Positions 4,636-35,187 of a DNA stretch of 38,297 nucleotides are shown here, in pieces. This DNA comes from a virus, in IMG/VR virus record IMGVR_UViG_3300029448_000128, positions 1-38,297 of that record. The stretch is one strand, 5' to 3'. The position numbers were made by a program, and so were the translations under genes. Numbering within the stretch: position 1 is the first letter of the stretch; every line of letters begins with the position of its first letter. The notes under the pieces are model-generated. The model did not search any database, had not been told where the DNA came from, and saw nothing but the letters and a program-made list of their open reading frames with translations.

Positions 4636-4654
4636 ATCTAAACTGTCCTGTTTT
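4636..4654 (-). promoter_or_regulatory. Phage RNA polymerase promoter before the tail fibre
   Basis: Read on the minus strand the site is AAAACAGGACAGTTTAGAT, identical over 19 bases to the copy at 18473-18491. By analogy with T7 promoters (CACTATAG, with G at +1) initiation is predicted at 4638. That leaves only about 9 untranslated bases before the fibre ATG at 4629. The position corresponds to a late promoter upstream of the T7 fibre gene. Confidence 0.85.
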
Positions 4655-18472: not shown

Positions 18473-18491
18473 ATCTAAACTGTCCTGTTTT
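18473..18491 (-). promoter_or_regulatory. Phage RNA polymerase promoter of the virion operon
   Basis: The minus-strand sequence AAAACAGGACAGTTTAGAT is identical to the fibre promoter and differs at two positions from the copy before the ssDNA-binding protein. Predicted start of transcription is the G at 18475. It separates the replication genes from portal, scaffold, capsid and tail genes, the place of T7 class III promoters. Confidence 0.87.
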
Positions 18492-20393: not shown

Positions 20394-20479
20394 GCCCTCG
20401 TGGTGAAATTGGTAGACACAATGGACTTAAAATCCATGCCATTTATGGAGTGCCAGTTCGAGTCTGGCCGAGGGCACCA
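20394..20479 (+). tRNA. trnL-UAA: tRNA-Leu (anticodon UAA), candidate attachment site
   Basis: A complete class II cloverleaf is present. Acceptor arms are GCCCTCG (20394-20400) and CGAGGGC (20469-20475). A D arm is present. The anticodon stem ATGGA/TCCAT has loop CTTAAAA (20426-20432, anticodon TAA at 20428-20430). A 14-base variable arm follows, then T arm GCCAG-TTCGAGT-CTGGC (20452-20468), discriminator A and encoded CCA. It is on the opposite strand to all neighbouring genes and overlaps the 3' end of a small Cys-rich gene. It may supply UUA-decoding tRNA, or be the integration core identical to a host tRNA-Leu gene, or both. Confidence 0.95.
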
Positions 20480-24670: not shown

Positions 24671-25120
24671 TTATGCCTCTTGTAATTTTTTAATTTGCTT
24701 TACCCATTCATCAGGTAAAAATTTTTTTGATGATTGAATGCAATGATATTGGAAACCTTTTAACTCACACCATTTTGCGTAAGTCGTTTTAGATTTTTTA
24801 CCAATTTTATTTTTGCTATTTGAAAATACAAATCTAATATCCAGGTCTGGGTATTGTTGTTTGATTTGTAAATGTTTGCGCCTGTCAGATGTTAAGAACT
24901 GACCTTTAGTTTCAAATATAATTCTTAAATTATTATTTATAGGACAGATAAAATCTGGTGTGTATTTAGATGGTTTTTCAGGCTTGAGGTAGGATATTTT
25001 AAAATCTTCATAACCAAAACTAATTTCATTTTTTTCAAGAAAATCATTAAACACCTCCTCAAGCTTAGACTTGAATTTAGAAGTCGGTTGCTGATACCGC
25101 TTCTGTTTCTTGTATTTCAT
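24671..25120 (-). CDS. Endonuclease I / Holliday junction resolvase (T7 gp3-like)
   Basis: The chosen ATG at 25120 (MKYKKQKRYQQPTSKFKSKLEE) gives 149 residues, the same length as T7 endonuclease I, and places FKSKLEE where T7 has FRSGLED. The active-site residues are visible: Glu21, Asp in TPDFICP and Glu/Lys in FETKGQF, followed by the shared block RRKHLQIKQQYPDLDIRFVF. The enzyme resolves branched replication DNA and helps break down host DNA. The start lies inside the 3' end of the ssDNA-binding protein gene (44-base overlap) and no strong ribosome binding site is seen, so translation may be coupled. Confidence 0.94.
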   Translation of the reverse strand: MKYKKQKRYQQPTSKFKSKLEEVFNDFLEKNEISFGYEDFKISYLKPEKPSKYTPDFICPINNNLRIIFETKGQFLTSDRRKHLQIKQQYPDLDIRFVFSNSKNKIGKKSKTTYAKWCELKGFQYHCIQSSKKFLPDEWVKQIKKLQEA

Positions 25121-25685
25121 CAGGGATGTTTTTAGATGATGCATCACCAGCAACTTTTTCAAAGTCACTAGAGCTACTTGTTTGTGCGCCACCTTCGATT
25201 AGATTTTTTACTTGAACTGATTTAAGTCTTAGTGAAACACCAGCACCTAACATTGGTGTAAACCATAATGCAGGTTGATAACTAACTCTTAATATGCTGC
25301 CACCCCAAATTTGAACTTGTTCAGGATTAATAGGTTTAAGGTCATTATCAAATAAAGCTGGTTTCTGTTTAAATGTATCGCCAGTTTTACTATTAGTTCC
25401 ACTAGCTTTCATTTTAAACTTAAAGATTGTTTTACCATCTTCAGTTTCTTTGTAAGGTAATGAAGAAGTTTGTTTTATATTCTTCTTACCTGTTTTTTCT
25501 TGAGCCTGTTTTACAGACTGTTCAGCTAAATCATTAATAAAAGTTTTTAACTCTTCAGCTTGTTCTCCTTCAACTTCTAGGTCTACTTTAAATTCACCTT
25601 CGGCTTTGAATTTTACATCCGCCTTAGATAAATATGGGTATAAAGCTTTCCCAAAAGGAGAAGTATATTTTTTTGCATTTTGCAT
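25077..25685 (-). CDS. Single-stranded DNA-binding protein (T7 gp2.5-like)
   Basis: This is a 202-residue protein. It shows the OB-fold layout of gp2.5: KVDLEVEGEQAEELKTFI near residues 33-50, DGKTIFKFKMKASG near 82-95, WGGSILRVSYQPALWFT near 121-137 and VSLRLKSVQVKNL near 142-154. A long acidic C-terminal tail ends in Phe (AVSATDF), which in T7 contacts polymerase and helicase. A perfect ribosome binding site AGGAGGG lies 6 bases before the ATG. It is the first gene after the phage promoter at 25794-25812 and has a structured 111-base leader. Confidence 0.94.
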   Translation of the reverse strand: MQNAKKYTSPFGKALYPYLSKADVKFKAEGEFKVDLEVEGEQAEELKTFINDLAEQSVKQAQEKTGKKNIKQTSSLPYKETEDGKTIFKFKMKASGTNSKTGDTFKQKPALFDNDLKPINPEQVQIWGGSILRVSYQPALWFTPMLGAGVSLRLKSVQVKNLIEGGAQTSSSSDFEKVAGDASSKNIPDEIQETEAVSATDF

Positions 25686-25796
25686 AATACCCTCCTAGGT
25701 ATTTATTGATTAATAAATACTGAGTAGTCTTGGTTAATATTCGCATACAACATTAGCCTTTTCGCCTACTCAGTATTTGATAAAGTTTCCTTCATC
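25686..25796 (-). promoter_or_regulatory. Structured 111-base leader of the ssDNA-binding protein mRNA with two exclusive stems
   Basis: The leader holds a perfect 13-base-pair inverted repeat, arms at 25715-25727 and 25766-25778. Overlapping it is a perfect 9-base-pair hairpin, arms at 25699-25707 and 25712-25720 around a 4-base loop. The two stems share 25715-25720, so only one can form at a time. The short stem ends next to the AGGAGG ribosome binding site. This is the layout of an RNA switch, or an RNA processing site, controlling gp2.5-like protein synthesis. Confidence 0.65.
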
Positions 25797-25812
25797 TATA
25801 GTGTCCTGTTTT
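25794..25812 (-). promoter_or_regulatory. Phage RNA polymerase promoter of the replication operon
   Basis: The minus-strand sequence AAAACAGGACACTATAGAT is the copy closest to T7 promoters (shared CACTATAG). Initiation is predicted at 25796. It lies between the RNA polymerase and the ssDNA-binding protein genes, as T7 class II promoters do, and drives replication genes. Confidence 0.88.
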
Positions 25813-25829
25813 GATGCGCTAGCGTAACC

Positions 25830-31582: not shown

Positions 31583-32317
31583 ATGATATATAAAGATATA
31601 GATAATTTTATGAGTACGTCTCCTAGTTCTCTTGAAGATTTTTCTGATTTTATAAACAAGCTGATTAAAGAGCATGGTAGAGAAGCTATTATTAATACAG
31701 CAGGTATAGATAAGAATGTATTATATCGTGCCAGTAATTGTCAAAATATAACTTTAGATAATTATTATAAAATTAAAAAAGCATACAACAATCAATTAAC
31801 ATCTATATCTCAATCTAAATCTATAGAACAATTACCAATATTAGGTCAAGTTATAGATAACGATAAAGTTCGTATGTTAAATCTTACTCAACCACAGTCT
31901 GTGTCTGTACCTGCTGATTTAATTAAAGCATGGTCGCCTGTACTTGGTTATTTGTGTGTCAGTGGTACAGCTTATTCAGGTTTTGTGTTTATATTTTCTG
32001 GTAAAGGTTTAGATAATGTAAGTTCTTACGTTAATAATAAATGTGTTAATAGATTAGTTATGCTTTATCCTGAAAATGATGACCCAATGTACGGTATGAT
32101 AATTAAACAAGATAATAATTTTGTATTAATTCATGTTAGAAGTCGTGAAGTTTTACTAACAATACCTAAAAATAATAACATTAGTTGGTCTAAGTTTATT
32201 TGCATGATACCTTTTTCACTTATGGAAGACTTCAAAGAGCCTAAAAGTGCTAACAATAAGTATCACAATAACTTACATAAATTAGAAACTAATATTATGA
32301 ATAAGTTAAATAAATAA
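31583..32317 (+). CDS. CI/LexA-like repressor lacking a clear autoprotease site
   Basis: This is a 244-residue protein and the only plus-strand protein gene. The N-terminal part has a helix-turn-helix-like stretch (INTAGIDKNVLYRASN, then NYYKIKKAY) at about residues 35-70. The C-terminal part follows the S24/LexA layout: LPILGQVIDNDKVRML near 83-98, PVLGYLCVSGTAYSGFVFIFSG near 118-139 and LVMLYPENDDPMYGMII. The usual catalytic Ser of the GDSM block and the later Lys are not evident. It may be non-cleavable, or induced in another way. It faces the leftward genes across the dyad and converges with the gene at 32331. Confidence 0.75.
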   Translation: MIYKDIDNFMSTSPSSLEDFSDFINKLIKEHGREAIINTAGIDKNVLYRASNCQNITLDNYYKIKKAYNNQLTSISQSKSIEQLPILGQVIDNDKVRMLNLTQPQSVSVPADLIKAWSPVLGYLCVSGTAYSGFVFIFSGKGLDNVSSYVNNKCVNRLVMLYPENDDPMYGMIIKQDNNFVLIHVRSREVLLTIPKNNNISWSKFICMIPFSLMEDFKEPKSANNKYHNNLHKLETNIMNKLNK

Positions 32318-33883: not shown

Positions 33884-34387
33884 TTACCAGTTAGAGTTAA
33901 ATATTAAGCTTGAACCGTCAGCAGCATCGCCTTCGTGATAATCATGTGACAAATCACGCTCCCACTTATCATAATCAAAGTAATTTTGAATATGTTGTGG
34001 ACAGTCAATTAGCATAGTTTCATCAGCTAATGATTGAGCAAACTCACTGAAGTCTGAATATTTTCCATAGTAAGCATCATCAACATGGTCTAAGTCTTCT
34101 ATGCTCCAGTTTTCTAAAAAAGCACTAACAACATCAGCATCATGCTCGTCTATAGCCTCTTGAACTTTTATAATGTTTTCAATTCCAGGATATTCTCCAA
34201 GGTTTGGAAAATTATTATAATCATGTACAGCCCACTCTTCAGCATCTTCAATTGGTGAGCTCTTCAAGATTTTATTTATTTGTGCCTGCAATTCGTCTTT
34301 ATCATTTGCAGGTGTTATCCACTCGCCATGTAAATGACCGCTATTATAAGCGGCTAAACATGCAACGTATATTTGATTGTCTTGCAT
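33884..34387 (-). CDS. ardA: ArdA-family anti-restriction protein
   Basis: This is a 167-residue, very acidic protein. IYVACLAAYNSGHLHGEWI at residues 6-24, AEEWAVHDYNNFPNLGEYPG near 50-69, WSIEDLDHVDDAYYGKY near 94-110 and the LADETM and YFDYDKWERDL blocks are the ordered signatures of ArdA. ArdA proteins mimic bent B-form DNA and block type I restriction enzymes. It is the first gene of the early operon, exactly where T7 has the unrelated DNA mimic Ocr (gp0.3). A host-type promoter with two operator-like motifs lies just upstream. Confidence 0.95.
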   Translation of the reverse strand: MQDNQIYVACLAAYNSGHLHGEWITPANDKDELQAQINKILKSSPIEDAEEWAVHDYNNFPNLGEYPGIENIIKVQEAIDEHDADVVSAFLENWSIEDLDHVDDAYYGKYSDFSEFAQSLADETMLIDCPQHIQNYFDYDKWERDLSHDYHEGDAADGSSLIFNSNW

Positions 34388-35168: not shown

Positions 35169-35187
35169 ATCTATACTGTCCTGTTCT
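35169..35187 (-). promoter_or_regulatory. Phage RNA polymerase promoter after terminase (phi-OR-like)
   Basis: The minus-strand sequence AGAACAGGACAGTATAGAT matches the family at 17 or 18 of 19 positions and partly overlaps the terminase stop codon. The place after the terminase gene is that of T7 phi-OR, used for replication and packaging. Initiation is predicted at 35171. Confidence 0.85.

Follow-up and report, generated by a model that had tools for sequence, protein, structure and literature searches.

A three-hairpin leader before the ssb gene of a marine T7-like phage, with a covarying RNA stem and a possible role in mRNA processing

Genes 1.0 and 1.1 of T7 are separated by the RNase III signal R1.1, a hairpin of 60 nt whose internal loop is asymmetric (PMC6121014). 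The gene 2.5 leader of the same phage is 51 nt long; behind promoter phi2.5, its mRNA has a small hairpin at +1, followed by a G-poor linker, a Shine-Dalgarno sequence (SD) and the ssb start. In T4 and RB69, the gene 32 operator joins a folded 5' element to an A/U-rich stretch that is unstructured and contains the ribosome binding site for the single-stranded DNA-binding protein (SSB) (PMC535899); in T4 the folded element is a pseudoknot, some 28 nt long, at the 5' end, accompanied by UUAAA repeats. The ssb leader described here shares the T7 order of phage promoter, 5'-end hairpin, G-poor linker, SD and ssb start, and it also recalls the gene 32 operator in placing a folded element before an unpaired A/U/C-rich linker. 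In contrast to the T7 gene 2.5 leader, it contains a long hairpin, SL2, and a hairpin that displays the SD; in contrast to the T4 operator, the folded element is a long hairpin, and a pseudoknot was not found.

The window (the whole stretch of DNA analysed, a 38,297-base virus record) belongs to a T7-like phage that encodes an integrase. In GenBank its nearest relative is marine phage KT997847 (Chosvirus KM23C739), with pelagiphages next; Chosvirus KM23C739 has the gene order of the window and an ssb leader without SL2. Since ssb lies on the minus strand (25685-25077), the leader RNA corresponds to the minus strand of 25829-25686, a gap of 144 nt between the RNA polymerase (RNAP) gene and ssb that holds both of the inverted repeats described in an earlier note on this DNA. 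Endonuclease I and amidase genes lie 3' of ssb on the same strand. The T7-type RNAP itself is split into overlapping open reading frames in different frames, RPOL_N and RNA_pol (Table 1), and the KT997847 annotation likewise has two adjacent RNAP genes.

Related SSBs are encoded at 80 loci recovered by scanning viral contigs, and the sequence before ssb was read in about 60 of them; no related ssb was found in the prokaryote genome collection. Within the clade defined by SSB identity above about 57%, the leader elements always follow one order: the RNAP stop, a palindrome TACGCTAGCG (in some AACGCTTGCG), the promoter-like A(G/A)GACACTATAGAT, a hairpin GATGAA...TTCATC, the long hairpin SL2 in most sequences, the linker and ACC(T)AGGAGGGT.

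Table 1. Features at and around the ssb leader (coordinates of the window)
Feature	Position	Strand	Remark
RNA polymerase, two-part	28551-27559 + 27593-25830	(-)	upstream of ssb
Palindromic element TTACGCTAGCG	25817..25827	(-)	between RNAP stop codon and promoter
Phage-RNAP-type promoter AAAACAGGACACTATAG	25796..25812	(-)	predicted +1 = G at 25796
SL1, 5'-terminal hairpin GATGAAGGAAACTTTATC, 7 bp	25779..25796	(-)	begins at predicted +1
SL2 helix P1, 5' arm	25766..25778	(-)	covariation
SL2 interior	25728..25765	(-)	asymmetric internal loop, weak upper stem, conserved bases
SL2 helix P1, 3' arm	25715..25727	(-)	covariation
Single-stranded linker, A/U/C-rich, G-free	25704..25714	(-)	between SL2 and SL3
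SL3 hairpin AATACC-TAGGAG-GGTATT	25686..25703	(-)	Shine-Dalgarno in loop
9-bp hairpin of the earlier note	25699..25720	(-)	coincidental, not conserved
ssb, gp2.5-like	25077..25685	(-)	PF21265 SBB_T7 E=1.8e-15; phrog_112 E=5.4e-28

The promoter motif (AAAACAGGACASTWTAGAT) resembles the T7 core CACTATAG, is also kept before ssb in relatives, and recurs in the window on the minus strand at 35180, 18484 and 4647. From this we infer a promoter before ssb and a transcript that would start at 25796. At two promoter-like sites on the minus strand other than that before ssb, 4637-4648 and 18474-18485, the predicted +1 lies about 5-9 nt before the next start codon, and these sites, if used, would give nearly leaderless transcripts.

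The minimum-energy fold of the leader holds three hairpins together, and against shuffled sequences the whole leader folds with z = -6.7, none of 200 shuffles equalling it. SL1, with a pair probability above 0.99, remains paired in nearly all relatives despite sequence changes (GATAAAC/GTTTATC and TGACAAT/ATTGTCG, for example); in one relative (L009, ~2844-2893) the place of the short SL1, at the predicted start of the transcript and upstream of SL2, is taken by a long hairpin of 18 bp. The linker has 6 G in 328 bases over 21 leaders, whether or not they have SL2. SL3, which displays AGGAG in its loop, has pair probabilities of 0.65-1.0 and is present in leaders with or without SL2. Its ACC/GGU pairs are constant in 22 of 22 clade leaders and compensatory changes occur at the next two pairs, giving stems such as AAAACC/GGTTTT, GAACC/GGTTC, AGACC/GGTCT and TAACC/GGTTA. 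When arms are swapped between sequences, SL3 pairing falls from 95.5% to 83% (maximum 90%), support that is weaker than for the 13-bp stem yet consistent. Among the gene starts examined in the window, the fold at the ssb SD is the most stable.

The strongest evidence concerns the 13-bp inverted repeat reported in the earlier note, here helix P1 of SL2. Its arms (AAATACTGAGTAG at the lower and CTACTCAGTATTT at the higher coordinates) match perfectly, and it is the sole perfect inverted repeat of at least 12 bp with a gap of at most 60 in the 38-kb window; since simulated sequences contain 0-2 such repeats, its length is not decisive alone. Comparison among relatives is more telling: many leaders are near-identical, and in the 14 with distinct SL2 sequences the two arms diverge almost completely with the pairing kept. 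P1 is paired in 94% of 182 cells, as against 57% when each 5' arm is matched with the 3' arm of another sequence (maximum 85% over 1000 such swaps); two-sided changes are seen at 12 of 13 positions and there are 32 extra pair types, counts that are not independent events because the 14 sequences are related by descent. The inner 9 bp pair without exception (126 of 126 cells). These counts were made on hand-anchored arms because the MAFFT alignment (A2) misaligns P1, which also limits the covariance model (R1) to 9 pairs. Read on the ssb mRNA strand, the non-Watson-Crick cells comprise 11 G-U against 1 A-C, a bias that favours a helix formed by the ssb transcript over a cruciform in the DNA. 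From sequence covariation, then, the 13-bp stem is a real RNA helix, which would act at the mRNA level.

Within SL2, the conserved bases are the apical UGUUGURUGCGA, with UUGU nearly invariant, and the 3'-side UUAAC, invariant in 14 of 14 sequences. Predicted folds comprise the 13-bp lower stem, an asymmetric internal loop and an upper stem; as the upper stem is weak in some relatives, parts of the modelled fold are uncertain. The sequence-structure covariance model finds a single SL2 copy in the window, at the ssb leader (E = 3e-12), and none in 32 other loci outside ssb leaders, and of 110 stretches in viral contigs with the core pattern, every one that has the flanking stem precedes ssb. 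At SL2, all Rfam families score below their gathering thresholds (in the window only a tRNA reaches its own), and a relaxed threshold returned only implausible miRNA, snoRNA and sRNA models, unrelated and far below threshold; SL2 is an RNA element without a match in this public RNA family library. On the SSB tree, the most parsimonious account of SL2 presence requires 4 changes, at least 2 of which are forced by well-supported branches, and several lineages are without SL2. The element was thus lost, or exchanged, more than once.

We also looked for tertiary contacts. Several leaders could pair UUGURUG in the SL2 loop with UAUGCAA at the ssb start codon; this pseudoknot was rejected because 15 of 42 gene starts of the window match the same loop equally well and because it is broken in three relatives (L005, L007 and L052). 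Pairing of the loop with codons 21-24 occurs in some relatives only and is absent in the window. No conserved long-range pairing or pseudoknot was found in the leader.

The best reading, which we advance tentatively, is that the region is the 5' leader of a phage-RNAP transcript beginning with ssb, and that SL2 serves as a processing and insulation hairpin. SL1, at the RNA 5' end, could protect or cap the mRNA. SL2 would be either a cleavage site for host RNase III or the binding site of a factor; in this way it would set the ssb mRNA apart from transcripts of the RNAP gene upstream and delimit the stable ssb mRNA. SL3 may tune translation initiation. The covariation of P1, the near-restriction of its wobbles to the mRNA strand and the coexistence of the hairpins in one fold are consistent with this proposal, as is the promoter motif, which ends where SL1 starts. 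T7 gene 2.5 itself has a promoter, 5' hairpin, linker and SD, and several cultured pelagiphages have the order RNAP gene, promoter-like motif, hairpin, SD and ssb. Set beside these leaders, SL1, the linker and the SD make up an ordinary T7-type ssb leader, to which, by comparison of the sequences, SL2 is an addition. SL2 is akin to R1.1 in size, shape and place: both are hairpins of about 60-70 nt in which two stems flank an asymmetric internal loop, and both are intergenic after the RNAP gene; the lower stem of SL2, hypervariable in sequence yet always paired, adds to the likeness. They differ in that SL2 stands directly before ssb and conserves bases at its apex and on its 3' side, and any cleavage of SL2 is putative. 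The repeated loss of SL2 would also fit a dispensable processing site. Two observations sit less well with processing. RNase III does not normally require fixed bases, and the conserved bases of the SL2 interior go beyond what RNase III alone would explain, which keeps a protein-binding role open. Moreover, cleavage within SL2 would strip SL1 off promoter-derived transcripts. If SL2 is indeed an RNase III site, the T7 plan of mRNA processing after the RNAP gene would extend to these phages.

A translational operator, the main rival, is possible, and less probable than processing. By analogy with T4 gp32, which acts on its own mRNA, SSB or another phage protein would bind SL2, spread along the linker and cover the SD hairpin, so that ssb would be shut off as free SSB accumulates. 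The layout resembles that of the gp32 operator, in which a folded element precedes a ribosome-binding region that is A/U-rich and unstructured (PMC535899), and the linker is unpaired and nearly G-free; however, the SD is inside SL3, there are no clear UUAAA repeats, and a gp32-type 5' pseudoknot was not found, the loop/start-codon match being at background level. T4 gp32 belongs to an SSB family unrelated to that of the window, and the likeness between the leaders is one of layout. The conserved bases within SL2 suggest a specific partner, and both the restriction of SL2 to ssb leaders and the SD hairpin peculiar to ssb would suit an operator. On the other hand, relatives with 59-74% identical SSBs lack SL2 entirely, the linker also fits simple ribosome access, and autoregulation in the gp2.5 family was not found in the open-licence literature. 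Because the T4 relative RB49 is also without the pseudoknot (PMC535899), the patchy loss of SL2 is not fatal to the operator proposal. If SL2 does bind SSB, the T7 lineage would have feedback control by SSB.

A bolder claim, which we consider unlikely, is that SL2 founds a new family of regulatory RNAs confined to marine T7-like ssb leaders and read by the phage's gp2.5-type SSB or another phage factor as a control on ssb translation; if true, feedback of the T4 gp32 type would have been invented independently in the T7 lineage. Searches of the open-licence literature gave nothing specific on pelagiphage promoters and RNA structures. SL2 provides a well-supported, strand-assigned RNA structure in a little-studied group of marine T7-like phages, some of whose natural variants carry the element and others lack it.

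The primary origin of T7 replication follows gene 1, and the repeat, which comes after both the RNAP gene and a phage promoter, could by its position be taken to indicate a DNA-level element, either a cruciform or an AT-rich replication origin. This is very unlikely, given that the excess of G-U over A-C on the sense strand points to selection on the mRNA strand and that no change in GC skew was seen near the site. Slightly less likely again is a role in terminating or attenuating transcription by host or phage RNAP: a stable stem does lie between the RNAP gene and ssb, but its loop is about 38 nt, it falls between the promoter and the gene of the same transcript, and the U-run after the stem is not consistent among relatives.

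The earlier note had read the leader as a two-state, riboswitch-like switch between the 13-bp stem and a 9-bp hairpin bordering the ribosome binding site. The 9-bp arms are perfect (25699-25707, GTATTTATT, with 25712-25720, AATAAATAC), and the two repeats do overlap, at 25715-25720. Paired changes among relatives, the check that the note had suggested, retain the 13-bp stem; the 9-bp stem is missing elsewhere, being confined to the window genome and one near-identical contig. None of the other distinct leaders, including one whose SSB is 93% identical, has a hairpin like it immediately before the SD. Hairpins of at least 9 bp with a loop of at most 8 number 3 in the window and 1-6 in simulations, which places this one at chance level. 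Forcing it raises the folding energy of the leader from -34.8 to -26.3 kcal/mol, a cost of about 8.5, its pair probability is at most 0.04, and it also clashes with SL3. The stem that is really conserved next to the ribosome binding site is SL3, which can form together with the 13-bp stem. Failing on both conservation and energy, the 9-bp stem leaves the switch unsupported and, of all the readings, the most improbable.

Upstream of the promoter, the palindrome occurs in nearly all relatives and is probably a DNA operator rather than an RNA hairpin. A motif, TACGCTAG/CTAGCGTA, has copies at 25819, 28672, 28689, 30441, 30462, 34419 and 34448, all seven of them intergenic in a window of which intergenic DNA makes up 8%. 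Copies lie upstream of the RNAP gene, of gene 33884-34387 and, at close range, of the ssb promoter, and an inverted pair lies upstream of a probable transcription regulator that adjoins the integrase. The motif looks like the operator of a lysogeny regulator, which may be compared with the MarR model in phage LUZ100 (PMC10134795). In this integrase-bearing phage, a tRNA-Leu (taa) at 20394-20479 (+), on the strand opposite most genes, is a possible attachment site. The sole clear plus-strand gene amid minus-strand genes, 31583-32317 (+), is without a Pfam or PHROGs match and may encode a repressor.
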